A DNA stretch of 64,000 nt from an uncultured Lachnospiraceae bacterium (GTDB taxonomy: Bacteria > Bacillota > Clostridia > Lachnospirales > Lachnospiraceae), in assembly GCA_947630925.1 (NCBI GenBank), contig CANRJM010000002.1, positions 124,001 to 188,000 of the forward strand, written 5' to 3'. The notes beneath the pieces are model-generated. The model did not search any database. It was not told where the DNA came from and saw only the letters and a program-made list of their open reading frames with translations. The translations under genes and the position numbers were made by a program. This document shows positions 12,995-59,134 of the stretch, in pieces. Numbering within the stretch: the stretch's first letter is position 1; every line of letters starts with the position of its first letter.

Positions 12995-13942
12995 CTACAA
13001 ATGCAATCCTGTATCTTCCGCAAGCCCAAGCACCAGATTCATACATTCCACCGCAGCGCCGGAAGCTCCTTTGCCAAGATTATCAAACTGCGAAGAAAGC
13101 ACAATCCTCTCCGCATTTCCCGTGACATAAATTTTTAATCCATCCCAACCGGATAAGCCGTTTCCCGGCAGGAAACCACTCTGTATTACCTCGTCGTCCA
13201 TGTCCGCCACTTTCATAAATTTTTCTCCTTTGTAATAGTCTGCAAAATACTTCTGAAGCGTTTCCGGCGTCTGGTTTCCCTTCAGCATATCTGCGTACAA
13301 AGGAACGGAAACGACCATACCGCTGTAGTAATCATCTATGATTGGCGAAAATAACGGAGTTCTTGCCAATCCGGTCATCCGCTGCATTTCTTTTAAATGT
13401 TTGTGCTTCTGGCTCAATGCATATTCCCGTGAAGAAGAAAACGTCTCCGGACGGTTTTTGTCTCCATAAGCGGCTATCGCCTTTTTCCCTGCGCCGCTGT
13501 ATCCGGTCAGGGAAAAACTGGTAATCGGATAATCCTCTGGTAATATCCCGCCTGCAATCAGCGGATAGACCAGGGAGATAAAGCCTGTTGCGTGGCAACC
13601 GGGTACGGCTATTCTTTTGCTGCGGATGATTTTCTCCCTATGTTCTTTGGACAGTTCAGGGAATCCATATGCCCATCCGGCTTCTGTCCGATGTGCTGTC
13701 GAAGTATCTATGATGCACACCTCTTGATTTTCCACCAGAGAAACCGACTCTCTTGCCGCATCATCCGGCAGGCATAAAAAAGTGATATCAGAGCGGTTGA
13801 TCATTTTAGCACGTTCTTCCGGCTCTTTCCTCTTTGCCGGATCAATCTTTAAAATTTCCACATCCTCTCTTGACTGAAAGCGTTCATCAATCCGCAATCC
13901 GGTCGTCCCTTCACTTCCATCAATAAAAACCCTAGTCTTCAC
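12995..13942 (-). CDS. argC: N-acetyl-gamma-glutamyl-phosphate reductase (short type)
   Basis: ArgC reduces N-acetylglutamyl phosphate to the semialdehyde in arginine synthesis. The 315-aa protein belongs to the shorter, less common ArgC form: it begins VFIDGSEGTTGLRI, has SDITFLCLPDDAA, the nucleophilic Cys in VPGCHATGF, and SLTGYSGAGKK. The start is GTG at 13942, not the ATG further upstream, because AAGGAGG lies eight bases before it. The upstream gene's TAG stop overlaps the GTG by one base (TAGTG), so the two are translationally coupled. No other arg gene is nearby. It sits inside an operon of surface proteins, which is odd for a biosynthetic enzyme. Confidence 0.92.
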   Translation of the reverse strand: MKTRVFIDGSEGTTGLRIDERFQSREDVEILKIDPAKRKEPEERAKMINRSDITFLCLPDDAARESVSLVENQEVCIIDTSTAHRTEAGWAYGFPELSKEHREKIIRSKRIAVPGCHATGFISLVYPLIAGGILPEDYPITSFSLTGYSGAGKKAIAAYGDKNRPETFSSSREYALSQKHKHLKEMQRMTGLARTPLFSPIIDDYYSGMVVSVPLYADMLKGNQTPETLQKYFADYYKGEKFMKVADMDDEVIQSGFLPGNGLSGWDGLKIYVTGNAERIVLSSQFDNLGKGASGAAVECMNLVLGLAEDTGLHL

Positions 13943-14859
13943 TATTTTCTCCTCCTTGATACCACAATAATACAAACCATGACCGCTAAAATGGATATTA
14001 CCACCGATACTACTGCGGCCGGTTTATTGGGTTTTTGGCTTTCTGCGGCGCTGACAGCCGTTTTCTTCTGCCCGTTGTCTTGATCTTCCTTTTCCTTTGG
14101 TATCTTTGTCTGTTCCGGCGTCGCTTCCGGCTTTGGCGTCTCTATATCATTTGATGGAGACGCTTCCGGCGTCGCCTCCACCCCTTCCGGTCCGGGAGTA
14201 TCGTCCGGCTTAGAAGCTAATATCGTATAGTCCACTTCGTTTTCTTCTGCATACTGCTGCGCCGGACTGTCTTCATAACAGCGGATTTCAAAATCCTCAA
14301 TCTTTTCCTCCCCGTCATAGCCCAGAGAATGTTGCTGCAGCCGTGTATCCTGCGGTACTGTCACATGGTTCAATGAGGTACAGCCGTCAAAAACAGACTT
14401 CCTTAATTTTTCGAGATTCTCCGGCAGAGAGACCTTCTGCAACGACGTACAGCCCTCAAACGCTTCATCATGAATCGTTGTAATACTGTCCGCCATAGAA
14501 ATTTTCTTTAAATCCCTGCAGCCAGCAAACGCCCGCTCCCCTATGACCAAAACTCCTTCCGGTATGACAATCTTTGTATAGTCCCCTTCTGCAAAAGCTT
14601 CCGAACCAATGATGGTAACTTTCCTGCCGTCAATTTTTCTACTGATTTTAACTTCTGTATCATATCCGATATATTCTGTTATTTTGATTGTTCCATTGTC
14701 ACGGACAACATATTTATAGTCTCCTTCCGTTTGTTCCTCGCCTATGGCATCTGCCACGGATACCATGTCCGGATTTACCACATCCAGCATGTCCTTTGGC
14801 AGTACAGCCCCCGCTGATATGCAAAATACAACGCATATCCCTAAAACCAATTTTCTCAT
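13942..14859 (-). CDS. Leucine-rich-repeat (BspA-type) membrane-anchored surface protein
   Basis: A 305-aa protein. It has a signal peptide (LVLGICVVFCISAGAVL), then LRR_5/BspA-type repeats between about residues 65 and 165 (IGSEAFAEGDY, IGERAFAGCRDLKKI, IHDEAFEGCTSLQKV, LRKSVFDGCTSLNHV). A Pro/Thr/Glu-rich linker follows (about 215-265, TPEASPS, KPEATPE). A C-terminal membrane helix (VVSVVISILAVMVCIIVV) followed by RRRK is a stop-transfer anchor. Such proteins usually display ligand-binding repeats on the cell surface. The ATG has AAGGGGG upstream. It is the first gene of the operon, behind a good promoter at 14952-14980. Confidence 0.85.
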   Translation of the reverse strand: MRKLVLGICVVFCISAGAVLPKDMLDVVNPDMVSVADAIGEEQTEGDYKYVVRDNGTIKITEYIGYDTEVKISRKIDGRKVTIIGSEAFAEGDYTKIVIPEGVLVIGERAFAGCRDLKKISMADSITTIHDEAFEGCTSLQKVSLPENLEKLRKSVFDGCTSLNHVTVPQDTRLQQHSLGYDGEEKIEDFEIRCYEDSPAQQYAEENEVDYTILASKPDDTPGPEGVEATPEASPSNDIETPKPEATPEQTKIPKEKEDQDNGQKKTAVSAAESQKPNKPAAVVSVVISILAVMVCIIVVSRRRK

Positions 14860-15030: not shown

Positions 15031-15059
15031 TTTACGGAAACTATTTTTTTTGCTAGAAT
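15031..15059 (+). promoter_or_regulatory. Putative promoter of trmB
   Basis: TTTACG, 17 bp, TAGAAT. The -10 is good and the -35 is weak. It would start the structured leader near 15066. Confidence 0.5.
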
Positions 15060-15067
15060 ACTATGAG

Positions 15068-15160
15068 CCTTCCTATTTGGAAGGAAGGAAGCAATTTGCG
15101 CCTGTGCGCTGCTTGACACAAATTGCTTTATGCACAAAAAATGCAGCGCGGAAACGAGGA
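15068..15160 (+). promoter_or_regulatory. Structured leader RNA of trmB (pseudoknot type, shared with ahcY)
   Basis: The leader has a short hairpin (CCTTCC/GGAAGG, 15068-15084). A long hairpin follows, with arms AAGCAATTTG (15089-15098) and CAAATTGCTT (15119-15128). An extra G-C pair beyond one mismatch leaves a 16-base loop (15101-15116) containing GCGCTGC (15106-15112). That stretch is complementary to GCAGCGC (15143-15149), seven bases before the GAGGA Shine-Dalgarno site. The loop and the anti-loop/SD region closely match the ahcY leader (35672-35763). Pairing would place the ribosome site next to a pseudoknot, so control of translation is likely (inference). I cannot match it to a named riboswitch class. 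Confidence 0.7.
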
Positions 15161-15164
15161 AAAA

Positions 15165-15830
15165 ATGAGACTTCGCAACGTCAAGGGTTCACAGGAAAAA
15201 ATCCTGCAAAATCCATATACGATACAGACAGACGGCTTAAACGGCAGTGATTATAAAGGAATGTGGAACCAGAATATTTTCTGTAATGATCATCCTATCC
15301 ATATTGAAATCGGTATGGGGAAGGGACAATTTATCACGCAGTTGGCAAAAGAAAATCCGGACGTTAACTATATCGGTATCGAAAAATATTCCAGCGTACT
15401 CGTTCGGGCGCTTGACAAAAGGGAAGCGTTGGAAACAGATAATTTAAGGTTTCTGCGTATGGACGCAGAGGACATTACCTCTTACTTTGCCTTTGCCGAA
15501 GTATCGAAAATCTATCTGAATTTTTCCGATCCATGGCCGAAAGACCGCCATGCAAAAAGACGGCTTACTTCGACCCATTTTCTGTCCCTCTATGACAGCA
15601 TCCTTTCTCCCGGCGGATATCTGGAATTTAAAACGGATAACCGTCCATTATTTGACTTTTCACTGGAACAGCTTGAAGAAACAGGTTGGATAACGGATGA
15701 GGTGACTTTCGACCTGCATCATAACGGACCGGCTCCCCATAATATTATGACGGAATATGAAGAAAAATTTTATCGTCTGGGCAATCCTATCTGCCGCTTT
15801 GTTGCCCACCATGCGTCTCCTATTCCTTAA
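15165..15830 (+). CDS. trmB: tRNA (guanine-N7-)-methyltransferase
   Basis: TrmB uses S-adenosylmethionine to methylate guanosine 46 in the tRNA variable loop. The 221-aa protein shows the family SAM-binding motif IEIGMGKGQFI, the GIEKYSSVLVRAL region, DAEDI and the diagnostic LNFSDPWPKDRHAKRRL motif near residue 125, all present and intact. ATG 15165 is chosen because GAGGA lies four to eight bases before it and the residues then begin MRLRNVKG as in relatives; the in-frame ATG further upstream would start inside the conserved leader RNA. The stop overlaps the convergent permease gene by 11 bp. Confidence 0.95.
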   Translation: MRLRNVKGSQEKILQNPYTIQTDGLNGSDYKGMWNQNIFCNDHPIHIEIGMGKGQFITQLAKENPDVNYIGIEKYSSVLVRALDKREALETDNLRFLRMDAEDITSYFAFAEVSKIYLNFSDPWPKDRHAKRRLTSTHFLSLYDSILSPGGYLEFKTDNRPLFDFSLEQLEETGWITDEVTFDLHHNGPAPHNIMTEYEEKFYRLGNPICRFVAHHASPIP

Positions 15831-34421: not shown

Positions 34422-35666
34422 CTATATCGTTGAATTATTCAGGTATGCTTCCTGTTCCTCTGTAAGTACATCGATTTCTTTCCCCAAAAAAGTTAATTTA
34501 CGTTTCGCAACTTCCAGATCTACCTCCCGCGGTACATTAATCAAACGTTCTGTCAGCGCATTCTCATGTTCGACAAGATATTTCGCGCTTAATGCCTGAA
34601 TTGCAAAACTCATATCCATAATTTCTGCCGGATGTCCGTCTCCCGCTGCCAGATTGACCAAACGTCCCTGAGCAAGTACGTAAATCCAAACTCCCGTTGG
34701 AAGCCTATATCCCATAATATTGTTTCTCATTTCTTCCCTTGCTGTGGCAATCTCTTCCAACCGCTTCATATCGATCTCTACGTCAAAATGTCCCGCATTA
34801 CACAGGATAGCGCCTTCTTTCATCTGCATAAAATCCTCTTCGTCTATCACGCCGGCGCAGCCGGTTACCGTCACAAAGAAATCGCCATACTTTGCGGCTT
34901 CTTTCATAGGCATCACTTCAAATCCATCCATCACTGCTTCAATCGCTTTAATCGGATCGATTTCCGTGACAATCACTCTTGCCCCAAGCGCCTTTGCGCG
35001 CATTGATACGCCTTTACCGCACCAGCCATATCCTGCTACAACGACAATTTTCCCCGCCACGATCAGATTCGTGGTACGATTGATGCCGTCCCATACGGAC
35101 TGTCCCGTACCATAGCGATTGTCAAATAAATGCTTGCAGTCTGCATTATTGACCATAACCATAGGAAACTCCAACTGACCTGCCGCATCCATTGCCTGAA
35201 GACGTATAATGCCGGTTGTTGTCTCCTCACATCCTCCAATCACATATGGCAGTTGATCGCGCTTTGTCGTATGGAGCATATGCACAAGGTCGCCGCCGTC
35301 ATCAATGATAATATTTGCCTGATGCGATAAGGTCTCAGCAATATGGGCATTGTATTCTTCATCTGTCGCATCATGCCATGCAAATACATTCAATCCGTCT
35401 GCGGCAAGCGCTGCAGCTACATCATCCTGTGTAGACAGCGGGTTGCTGCCTGTTATATACATTTCCGCACCGCCTGCTGCCAACACTTTACAAAGGTATG
35501 CCGTCTTTGCCTCTAAGTGGATGGAAAGAGCAATCTTCTTGCCGGCAAATGGTTTGTCCCTCTTAAAATCCTCTTCCAAACTGCGCAGAAGCGGACAGTT
35601 TCTCCTTACCCATTCAATTTTATGCGCTCCGGACGGCGCCATTTTTTCATCTCTTATCTGACTCAT
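34422..35666 (-). CDS. ahcY: Adenosylhomocysteinase
   Basis: AhcY hydrolyses S-adenosylhomocysteine to adenosine and homocysteine, removing the product inhibitor of all SAM methyltransferases. The 414-aa protein is the shorter form lacking the internal insertion of many bacterial enzymes. Visible motifs: LSIHLEAKTAYL, GSNPLSTQDD, the NAD-binding loop VVAGYGWCGKGVSMRAKALGA, VTGCAGVI, and the GHFDVEID and GDGHPAEIMDMSFA segments. ATG 35666 is chosen because GAGG sits ten bases upstream; the in-frame ATG at 35678 is part of that ribosome site. It heads an operon with 33850-34407 and carries the conserved pseudoknot leader. Confidence 0.95.
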   Translation of the reverse strand: MSQIRDEKMAPSGAHKIEWVRRNCPLLRSLEEDFKRDKPFAGKKIALSIHLEAKTAYLCKVLAAGGAEMYITGSNPLSTQDDVAAALAADGLNVFAWHDATDEEYNAHIAETLSHQANIIIDDGGDLVHMLHTTKRDQLPYVIGGCEETTTGIIRLQAMDAAGQLEFPMVMVNNADCKHLFDNRYGTGQSVWDGINRTTNLIVAGKIVVVAGYGWCGKGVSMRAKALGARVIVTEIDPIKAIEAVMDGFEVMPMKEAAKYGDFFVTVTGCAGVIDEEDFMQMKEGAILCNAGHFDVEIDMKRLEEIATAREEMRNNIMGYRLPTGVWIYVLAQGRLVNLAAGDGHPAEIMDMSFAIQALSAKYLVEHENALTERLINVPREVDLEVAKRKLTFLGKEIDVLTEEQEAYLNNSTI

Positions 35667-35671
35667 AATTA

Positions 35672-35763
35672 ACCTCATTTCTGCGCTGCCTTTTCACATA
35701 ACCGATGTTTGTGGCAAGCAGCGCGCATACACAAACCCGTTAAGTAAAAAATCTCTTTTTTAC
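35672..35763 (-). promoter_or_regulatory. Structured leader RNA of ahcY (pseudoknot type, shared with trmB)
   Basis: On the minus strand GTAAAAAA/TTTTTTAC makes a short first hairpin (35763-35744). Then GTTTGTG (35736-35730) pairs with CACAAAC (35713-35707) around a 16-base loop. Within the loop GCGCTGC (35724-35718) is complementary to GCAGCGC (35689-35683), placed six bases before the GAGG site. Loop length equals that of the trmB leader, 12 of its 16 bases are the same, and the ten bases from the anti-loop into the ribosome site (AGAAATGAGG versus GGAAACGAGG) agree at eight positions. The shared link to SAM chemistry suggests a SAM- or SAH-sensing translational switch (inference). Confidence 0.7.
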
Positions 35764-35771
35764 CATTAAAC

Positions 35772-43663: not shown

Positions 43664-45709
43664 ATCATAATCTGTTTTTTCTCCATTGATGCTCAGCCTC
43701 CCATATGGATACATATCCAAAAACGGATATCTCGTAACACGGGTCCAAAAGCCGTATGATTTCCCCAAATGAGTCAGCCGTAGACTGTAGGACTGTATTC
43801 CACTGCTCCCATTTCCTTCATACCGTATACAATACGAGTCGTTTTTGTCCAAATCACGTAATCCGATTACCTTTCGATATAAAATTTCCCGCTTTGGATT
43901 GGAAAGAAGTTCAATCCGATATTCTTTATTGTTACTGTTTCTGTCGCGCGGTTCCTCAACCTGAAAATAAAGTTGGAGCAGATTCCATTGATTCCTCTCA
44001 AGGGACTGACCCTCCTGTATCGTTTGTTCCTGTACCCATGGCGTCTTATGAATTATCTGTACCGATTGCGTATCATGCGTTCCCGAAAAGTAAGTTCTGC
44101 TCGTTCCCTTCCCGCCGCCTTTTGCAAATGCCGAATACGATAAGACGCTTCCTGTGACCAGGCAGCTCCCCGCCGCAATCAGACAGCCGGATGCAGCAAT
44201 TTTTTTCCATTTTTTTCTGCGCTGTTTTTTCTGCATGGCATATAATGCTCCTGTCCCATCTGCAGCAAGCAGCAGACAACTGAACAGAAAACAGATATTA
44301 TATTTCGGATTTGCTTCCCAGATAAGGAAAAAGAGTATTGCTCCAAGCAGGGTAAGCGTAAACAGAAAAATATCATTCCATGCTTTTTTTCGTATTTGTC
44401 TGAAAATGCTCATACAGATCAGAAAAAAGGTAATGGCACGAAACACCTGTACATACATTACAAACCCAATATTTTTACTCCCAAAAAAGTAATCATACAG
44501 TACCGGATACTCCTGCGCATAGCGCGACTTATAAAAAGCATCATCTCCGCCCCTTGCCCAGACACGTTCTAATTTCTTCTCTAAAAGCTCCAGATAACCG
44601 GTCACGCCCAGATGGGATAATCGTTTTTTTATTTCTTTGATATTTGCATTTTTTCTCTCTTCTCTATTGGAAAAACTTTCTGTAAAATGACGGTCTTCCA
44701 ACGAAAAGCCTCCATCCCCTTTTAACCCCATCATGATCCAATGTGTAATAGGGAATGCTTTTTCAGAATATCCTACGGGAATATGTCTGTCCAATATGAG
44801 CTGACAGGAAAGGAATGTAATGGCGCAGGCCGCCAACGCAATTCCTGTTTTTAATATCATGTCTTTTTTTAACTGAAAATAACGCATACCTTCATATAAA
44901 ACAATCGCAATCACAGGTAAGATTGTCGTAGGACGAAGCAGATATCCCACCACGGCAAAAATGCCCCATACAATGCAGAGTACCGCCGTCCTCTTCCCAA
45001 ACTGCCTTTTCCTGATACACAGATACAGGTACAGGACGCCCGTTACAAAGGGAATGGAAAACGTATTGGTATATGCGTAGGTTTCCCAAACATAGGTTGT
45101 TGGACAAAATAAACAGAGTAACAGAAAAAAATTTGCGGACGACGGATTTTTCACACGCCTGATAGAAAGATAAGAGAATAAAATCCCTGTGTCCAGGCAG
45201 ATTACATTAAATATTACCAGTAACACACCCGTTTGATGAATATCCCAGTAATCTAATATACTATAAAAATAGTAAAATAAAACAACGATAAAATGATTGT
45301 TTGTATAATCCTGGAAATAGGGGATTTCCATGTTCAGCCTCCCCTTCTGCTTTTTAAACATATCCAGGGATTGACTTTGCACGGTCGCCGCATCCGACGT
45401 CTGCATCGGATGAGATACCAAAAACAGAAACAGAATCTGCAGGATGAGAATCATGGCAAACATGCCAATGGCAGTAAAAGAATACGAGCCTTTTACCGCC
45501 GGAATCCTACGATACATCCAAACGCAAAAGATACTTGCAGAAAACGTAAAAAGAAGCATCGCACAAAAAAATATGACATTTTGTGTAGAACCGGATATTA
45601 ATTCCTTCCTGTTTTCAACCGTAACTAAGGAAATCAAAAAAATATTACAACACAAAATGAATGTAAGATAAAGACAAAAATAATAAAACCATTTTTTTAT
45701 CCGATGCAT
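43637..45709 (-). CDS. GT-C-type membrane glycosyltransferase-like protein
   Basis: A 690-aa integral membrane protein. About ten to twelve hydrophobic segments fill residues 5-500, and a soluble C-terminal domain follows (about 540-690). The first extracytoplasmic loop has an Asp in QTSDAATV followed by YFQDYTNNHF, the place of the catalytic acid in GT-C (PMT/ArnT-like) enzymes that use polyprenyl-phosphate sugars. The soluble tail looks beta-rich and ends in a short FQLLKE. It is last of a three-gene operon with two pyruvyl transferases, consistent with building or decorating a surface polymer. The sugar and acceptor are unknown. Confidence 0.75.
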   Translation of the reverse strand: MHRIKKWFYYFCLYLTFILCCNIFLISLVTVENRKELISGSTQNVIFFCAMLLFTFSASIFCVWMYRRIPAVKGSYSFTAIGMFAMILILQILFLFLVSHPMQTSDAATVQSQSLDMFKKQKGRLNMEIPYFQDYTNNHFIVVLFYYFYSILDYWDIHQTGVLLVIFNVICLDTGILFSYLSIRRVKNPSSANFFLLLCLFCPTTYVWETYAYTNTFSIPFVTGVLYLYLCIRKRQFGKRTAVLCIVWGIFAVVGYLLRPTTILPVIAIVLYEGMRYFQLKKDMILKTGIALAACAITFLSCQLILDRHIPVGYSEKAFPITHWIMMGLKGDGGFSLEDRHFTESFSNREERKNANIKEIKKRLSHLGVTGYLELLEKKLERVWARGGDDAFYKSRYAQEYPVLYDYFFGSKNIGFVMYVQVFRAITFFLICMSIFRQIRKKAWNDIFLFTLTLLGAILFFLIWEANPKYNICFLFSCLLLAADGTGALYAMQKKQRRKKWKKIAASGCLIAAGSCLVTGSVLSYSAFAKGGGKGTSRTYFSGTHDTQSVQIIHKTPWVQEQTIQEGQSLERNQWNLLQLYFQVEEPRDRNSNNKEYRIELLSNPKREILYRKVIGLRDLDKNDSYCIRYEGNGSSGIQSYSLRLTHLGKSYGFWTRVTRYPFLDMYPYGRLSINGEKTDYDLCFQLLKE

Positions 45710-59043: not shown

Positions 59044-59072
59044 TTGCGTTCCCACTTTTCATGCGTTATAGT
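59044..59072 (+). promoter_or_regulatory. Promoter of murG
   Basis: TTGCGT (59044-59049), 17 bp, TATAGT (59067-59072). A second TATAAT nearby (about 59085) is an alternative -10. Confidence 0.55.
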
Positions 59073-59134
59073 ATATTGTATAATAAAGATAATGCCAATT
59101 ATACGTGAACTGAAGCGCAGGAATGGAGAAAAAT

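Follow-up and report, generated by a model that had tools for sequence, protein, structure and literature searches.

Small H-type riboswitches such as SAM-II, SAM/SAH and preQ1 carry a pseudoknot near the Shine-Dalgarno (SD) sequence, and MITE-like or IS200/IS605-derived repeats are short non-coding copies with hairpin ends that occur in many places. We are not aware of any leader that is copied as a cassette, has its 3' end at the SD and is used by many unrelated genes of one genome. For individual genes, the 5' UTR pseudoknot of the E. coli tisB mRNA is needed for binding of the 30S subunit and protein S1 and for translation; in that mRNA the ribosome-binding site (RBS) is sequestered and a single-stranded region is located 100 nt farther upstream (PMC7708055). 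The rpsO (S15) pseudoknot is docked on the 30S platform with the SD/anti-SD helix formed and is melted by S1; it includes coding sequence and serves one ribosomal protein gene (PMC3858243).

The leaders studied here, whose parts (pseudoknot, SD and hairpin) are of known kinds, resemble that of tisB in their H-type pseudoknot, known in the present case from covariation only; they differ in that tisB is one gene, whereas the pseudoknot of the cassette directly adjoins the SD and is found ahead of many genes. The likeness to rpsO would lie in a pseudoknot that is found together with an SD/anti-SD helix at the 30S platform (PMC3858243), and the cassette differs from ribosomal protein autoregulatory leaders in having no single carrier or regulator gene. 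Unlike the SAM-II, SAM/SAH and preQ1 riboswitches it has neither an Rfam score nor a pathway association and is present in far more copies, and in contrast to the MITE-like or IS200/IS605-derived repeats the copies seen are sense-oriented, stand at gene starts and provide the SD. The cassette was not found described in the open-licence PMC literature, including the accessible parts of PMC11109978, PMC8632094, PMC2864571 and PMC3023696.

The window, a 64,000-nucleotide stretch of the genome of an uncultured Lachnospiraceae bacterium, contains two such leaders, one ahead of trmB (15068-15167, forward strand) and one ahead of ahcY (35764-35664, reverse strand). In the trmB leader a promoter-like TTTACG-17-TAGAAT with a weak -35 box (15031-15059, read from the sequence) precedes a 5' hairpin, P0 (15068-15088, nested fold), and a stem-loop, P1 (15090-15128, with arms at 15090-15098 and 15119-15128 and one mismatch). 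The 5' strand of a second helix, S2 (GCGCTGC, 15106-15112), lies inside the P1 loop, and covariation pairs it with a 3' strand, GCAGCGC, at 15143-15149. The extended SD GGAAACGAGG (15150-15159; family consensus AGAAATGAGG) adjoins S2, and its GAGG at 15156-15159 is followed by the ATG at 15165 that opens the trmB coding sequence (15165-15830, forward strand). The ahcY leader, on the reverse strand throughout, repeats this arrangement with a promoter-like TTGGCG-17-TATAAT (again read from the sequence), P0 at 35743-35764, P1 with its loop at 35707-35736 (GTTTGTG...CACAAAC), the S2 strands GCGCTGC and GCAGCGC at 35718-35724 and 35683-35689, and the extended SD AGAAATGAGG at 35673-35682 with GAGG at 35676-35673. 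The coding sequence of ahcY (34422-35666) probably starts at ATG 35666, which is preferred to the start at 35678 in the list of open reading frames (ORFs) as its spacing matches that of relatives. Both gene names given in the original prediction are correct according to NCBIfam (TIGR00091 for TrmB, TIGR00936 for AhcY), and the features that it had read in the two leaders, namely promoter-like boxes followed by a 5' hairpin and a TTTG..CAAA stem, GCGCTGC facing GCAGCGC and loops that agree at 12 of 16 positions, were all found as described. Adjoining trmB on the opposite strand, positions 13942-14859 of the window encode a protein that partly matches the leucine-rich-repeat HupY/LrrG model, below its cut-off.

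Two search models were used to find relatives. R1, a model of P1 and its flanking sequence, was built from 35 copies that include both window leaders (alignment A1, comprising 35 of 37 loci, with L068 and L069 left out), and it assigns E values of 6.6e-21 and 4.7e-17 to the trmB and ahcY leaders, both of which are within its training set. R2, built from 65 other sequences with these two leaders excluded, still gives E values of 4.5e-12 and 3.1e-10 when 464 kb are searched. Within the window the 10-mer GCGCTGCTTG with one mismatch allowed occurs 5 times against 3.3 expected, which is background; in a structure-free search of 28 genomes of the genus, the 12-mer GCAGAAATGAGG occurs 863 times against 6 for the reversed control. 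A third site in the window, at 59066-59132 on the forward strand before murG, holds a reduced or degenerate copy with AAGCGCAGGAATGGAG and ATG 59135 (R1 E value 2.5e-4), of which the 3' part alone is recognisable and which R2 misses at E<=0.05. Another window match, at 44205-44295 (L120, E value 1.9e-4 with R1), was rejected, being within a coding ORF and without the SD motif. In the source genome as a whole, a relaxed pattern search identified 5 copies, and R1, with 150 of 1278 candidates scored, yielded 23 matches at E<=0.01 (among them the rejected window match inside a gene) and 37 at E<=1. Of 30 loci of the source genome, 26 have, by script, an ORF start behind an SD of the CAGAAA.GAGG type; L109 and, as a variant, L128 have it by eye, and L120 and L123 lack it. 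These counts are partly so by construction, because the SD belongs to the R1 model.

The carriers in the source genome are functionally diverse. Besides trmB and ahcY they comprise, by family search, metK, aspS, tsf, trkA, asd, gyrA, rpmD, rbfA, galE, murG, murD and leuS, and genes for an Fe-S hydro-lyase subunit, an ABC-F-type ATPase and a YegS/BmrU-type lipid kinase, with matches below the cut-offs for a GyrA/ParC-type subunit (cut at 499 aa) and a SpoIIP-like protein. Among the 20 carrier proteins scanned besides TrmB and AhcY, L104 and L114 have no family at threshold and L115 has a sub-cut-off match only. In the congener G013, where 40 of 45 sites were scanned and the remaining 5 have no ORF by script, three carriers (L308, L333, L347) have no Pfam family and one is a homocysteine methyltransferase/MTHFR protein. 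The carriers share no common pathway in the source genome or the congener, though metK, ahcY and trmB touch the methyl cycle. As side observations, a peptidase-type gene, the same by eye, bears the element in three genomes (L109, L474, L252), a possible conserved association, and at L140:1705-1957 on the reverse strand a T-box-like RNA, which at 76.9 bits falls short of the gathering score of 93, lies upstream of a pheS-looking gene (by eye) that also bears the pseudoknot element, so that two leader RNAs stand in series.

The two leaders were first interpreted as a riboswitch of the SAM/SAH type or another methyl-cycle switch, and metK, ahcY and trmB in the source genome, like the one homocysteine methyltransferase/MTHFR carrier of the congener, would fit it. 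However, most named carriers are unrelated genes, and by eye the element is present in 2 of 21 ahcY orthologs and 1 of 26 trmB orthologs of the genus, counts that leave out the fragments L374 and L375 (ahcY) and L401, L402 and L404 (trmB), do not include ahcY L372, which may hold a reduced form, and do not include trmB L385, L386, L387 and L397, where CAGAAA-type SDs were flagged by script and no S2 was seen by eye. These carriers and ortholog counts make a SAM/SAH switch very unlikely, to the point of being scarcely credible. The Rfam 15 covariance models point the same way: the whole window has no match at gathering score, the two leaders at E<=10 match unrelated chance families only, with no score from the SAM/SAH models, and no model covers the element at E<=1 in 19 loci with relatives. 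A match to a known Rfam family, which the original prediction had named as speaking against it, is thus absent from Rfam 15, and of its proposed translational switch the covarying pseudoknot, placed for action on translation, has been borne out, whereas the SAM/SAH link has not, since unrelated genes carry the element. Nor is the leader private to trmB and ahcY; there are many genomic copies, though mostly at gene starts. The observation of the original prediction was correct; its interpretation was mostly wrong and is partly supported.

The fold was examined in matches to a pattern that leaves S2 free, which was run over species genomes and in a viral scan and gave 115 distinct matches among the matches listed, from 119 stretches. 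An S2 of at least 6 bp is present in 107 of these 115 matches listed, against 53.6+-4.0 (maximum 65) when the strands are exchanged between sequences, with the best register taken for real and exchanged pairs alike and G-U allowed. In alignment A3, which consists of 65 of the 115 matches listed, chosen by S2 register and length in a way that favours pairing, S2 has 95.6% of its cells paired and double changes at 5 of 7 pairs, with a covariation score of 0.523 compared with 0.219 for shuffled alignments and at most 0.189 for slid registers. The loop/anti-loop helix of the original prediction therefore covaries clearly, the opposite of the outcome that had been named beforehand as speaking against it. 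P1, being fixed by the pattern in the 115-match set, was tested on 75 model matches in an alignment fitted to P1, with 96.0% paired and double changes in 6 of 7 pairs. In A3, the P1 extension has double changes in 4 pairs, but between 4 and 25 of 64 sequences, depending on the pair, are unpaired there. Several S2 types recur, including GCGCTGC/GCAGCGC, GTGCACA/TGTGTGC, GCGCGGC/GCCGCGC, GCACGGC/GCCGTGC and GTATGGCTT/AAGCCATGC. This covariation indicates that the leader is an H-type pseudoknot formed by P1 and S2, even though nested folding of the trmB leader gives a minimum structure without it. The whole cassette measures about 75-105 nt, with P0 often present, a P1 of 7-10 bp and an S2 that is usually of 6-9 bp.

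Reduced copies are found as well. P1 or the S2 5' strand is missing in some of them, with nothing but the 3' part and the SD kept, for example in L308, L311, L332 and L336, in several weaker loci of the source genome (for instance L116, L121 and L122) and in the gyrA leaders of G012 and G013; it follows that the pseudoknot is not always needed. In the P1-less copies of G013 (L308, L311, L332, L336) a small hairpin, TGCACA..TGTGCA, lies directly before the SD. Two further structural variants were noticed: in the G237 loci L465, L467, L468 and L470 a hairpin AGAACCAAC..GTTGGTTCT replaces or adjoins P0, and parts of it repeat in L465, which looks like modular exchange of the 5' hairpin, and in L429, the gyrA leader of G006, loop 3 apparently contains a long insertion with further hairpins, the pairing strands and the SD being intact.

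At its 3' end the element is tied to the start of a gene. The consensus AGAAATGAGG lies directly 3' of S2 and is followed by about 6 nt and the start codon, the spacing from GAGG to the start being 4-9 nt in 104 of the 115 matches listed (6 nt in 83, and 1 nt in one). An ORF of at least 50 aa is absent in 10 of the 115 matches listed, 6 of which lie within 300 nt of the end of the locus, leaving 4 of the 115 that are ORF-less with ample sequence downstream. By script, 11 of 15 matches in G013 at E<=0.05 have a downstream ORF of at least 50 aa, the others being an orphan (L459:3262), its antisense echo, L445:898 and L449:14038. The copy at L314, L178 and L459:3262 is identical to another and has no downstream ORF (ATG with a stop after 3 codons). 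The 16S tail of the congener is CCTCCTTTCT, with which the extended SD can form 9 of 10 pairs (duplex of -8.3 kcal/mol); the source genome's own 16S tail was not found in its assembly. Under nested folding only, the SD is slightly more open than when the leader is shuffled (0.53 compared with 0.44, p 0.022, n=100), although the unpaired value is only 0.34 for the trmB leader (0.66 for ahcY).

Good promoters were detected for 20 of 109 copies compared with 9.6+-2.7 in shuffled sequence, but a fixed promoter architecture was rejected, the distance to the -10 box not being constant across copies; an own promoter is not required, because copies also occur between gyrB and gyrA. A P0 hairpin of at least 7 bp is present at the corresponding place in 90 of 109 relatives, and the fold z of the P0 window is -2.8, as against -0.2 and -0.45 in two control windows (the mean of a third control window is meaningless, having zero variance). 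These two P0 results would suit an mRNA-protection leader in which P0 and the pseudoknot shield the transcript from 5'-to-3' decay by RNase J, yet the copies between gyrB and gyrA are not at 5' ends and the promoter distance is not fixed, and protection is a distinctly improbable function. An SD-like run within 18 nt to the left of P0 is found in 59 of 90 cases, compared with 18 of 109 random windows, and it may be either the gene's original SD left behind or a part of the cassette. Together with the codons at the P0 edge (GTG in 36, TTG in 18 and ATG in 2 of 56), this SD-like sequence could be read as the start of a leader peptide at the NTG in P0, through which a uORF would exert control. 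However, all three frames relative to the gene are about equally common (25/23/23 of 71) and by eye the peptide frame varies between types, and in L338 and L341 the codon is GCG with its partner changed too, a compensated loss of the start codon; we regard uORF control as highly improbable.

The element is widespread within one family. R1 has matches at E<=0.01 in 27 of 28 genomes of the genus, with 2 to 93 per genome having any. In a family sample at E<=1e-4 it was detected in at least 49 of 396 genomes and at least 38 of 280 genera, which are lower bounds because 12 candidates were scored per genome. In a class-wide sample 5 of 393 genomes match, 4 of them Lachnospiraceae (source genome included); the match in G616, the sole carrier outside the family, is weak and unconvincing by eye. 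The species-genome collection, scanned with the S2-free pattern, yielded at least 118 stretches, and the 80 titles listed are mostly Lachnospiraceae genera or MAGs, with some looser Clostridia-level labels and one 'Lactobacillus rogosae'. A viral-scan match on one contig (L275) precedes an ORF that by eye resembles a P-type ATPase and is probably host DNA. As far as seen, the cassette thus appears to be confined to Lachnospiraceae.

Such numbers raise the question of a global regulatory RNA, whose P1 and S2 would be recognised by a metabolite or an RNA-binding protein that sets the translation of a large regulon. The conservation of the P1 sequence and of part of the loop (TATGCGC) exceeds the demands of pairing and suggests that a protein or ligand recognises them, and the 27 carrier genomes of the genus have 2 to 93 matches each. 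In addition, the loop-3 motif TGCRC can pair with the S2 3' strand in an alternative hairpin that could be the other state of a switch, with 88% of cells paired and one covarying pair. Support for this hairpin is weak to moderate: its association is weak (46 compared with 35+-3, maximum 44), and its score of 0.203 is barely above the 0.197 of a register slid by two, in an alignment with visible shifts. In some G013 copies this 3' hairpin is all that is left. The SD is not obviously sequestered in either fold, the carriers lack a common pathway, and orthologs gain and lose the element. A global regulatory RNA is therefore rather unlikely as the main function, and trans control of the initiation step is possible. 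A trans-acting RNA partner that reads the loop is not supported, because S2 changes together with its cis partner.

Several observations indicate that the cassette has been copied within genomes. In G013, the last 100 nt up to GAGG are identical between L314 and L350, with unrelated flanks; 8 of 990 pairs among the 45 copies of this genome reach 80% ungapped identity, so most copies there are older or of different length. In G237 (11 of 12 copies parsed, L472 left out) identity over 100 nt is 83-98% in the best 20 of 55 pairs, against 17-43% outside, and averaged over all 55 pairs it is 0.98 within the 10 bases that precede the edge and drops to 0.34 at ten bases past it. The wider set comprised 15 of 20 loci parsed, with L472 (G237), L476, L478, L481 and L482 left out. 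Similarity between near-identical copies stops right after the GAGG of the SD, the left end near P0 being less sharp. For 77 of the 115 matches listed, the S2 distance (of 7) is 0.49 within genomes and 1.98 between genomes, with 1.96+-0.24 in label shuffles; the P1-extension distance (of 4) is 1.02 within and 2.45 between, and this sameness of the extension within genomes too is as copying would predict. Tandem units occur in L186, L265 and L474, and S2 differs between the two units of L265.

Turnover at orthologous sites was also followed for gyrA, for which a set of 25 loci was assembled and 6 were left out as the script found no start. The full pseudoknot is present in 4 of the 19 parsed leaders (G000, G027, G019 and G006); another 3 (G012, G013 and G024) have partial or degenerate forms. 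The GyrA proteins of G000 and G027 are 98% identical over 300 aa, and their leaders have an unusual S2 in common, while in P1 one C-G pair is exchanged for U-A and two G-U pairs for A-U; this compensatory change, in one leader pair, suggests that at a fixed site selection acts on the fold.

It is conceivable that the cassette is a selfish, non-autonomous mobile element that inserts just 3' of SDs, for which the replacement SD would make the insertion silent and the folded ends would serve mobilisation. Near-identical units at unrelated sites with a sharp right edge at GAGG, the SD-like run left of P0, tandem units of which one pair has different S2, and patchy presence among orthologs are all in line with this proposal. 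Against it, the left SD could be the cassette's own part, the compensatory change at the gyrA site, which is fixed, suggests that the element acts in cis once inserted, and a clean pair of empty and filled sites was not found among the gyrA, ahcY and trmB orthologs, which diverge too far outside the genes for such a comparison. The similarity between left and right spacers is weak and confounded by lineage: edge spacers are more alike than shuffled ones (w=6, 2.77 compared with 2.37) but not within the TTG class, and a target-site duplication was rejected. A selfish element of this kind is accordingly quite unlikely.

On balance, the probable reading is that the leader is a copied RBS cassette, restricted as far as seen to Lachnospiraceae, whose pseudoknot abuts the extended SD and would act at translation initiation. 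Once in place, the cassette would serve as the gene's own RBS; the pseudoknot may keep the SD free of other pairings and present it, beside a compact helix, to the 30S platform or to protein S1, a model drawn after the known pseudoknot mRNAs of E. coli. A more tentative proposal, possible if doubtful, is that the cassette is mobile and homes just 3' of SDs, bringing the pseudoknot and its own SD and taking over the initiation of unrelated genes without killing them. If true, it would be the RBS counterpart of introns and inteins and would over time build a genome-wide set of genes with one translational leader.

Lachnospiraceae are among the main human gut bacteria, and an RNA fold at the RBSs of many of their genes, with as many as 93 model matches in a single genome, would bear on the reading of these genomes. 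It would also matter for differences in expression between orthologs and for the design of RBS parts for these hosts. If the cassette is mobile, a repeat would have a new route of spreading through genes that leaves them intact; if it is regulated in trans, a single RNA fold would underlie a very large translational regulon.
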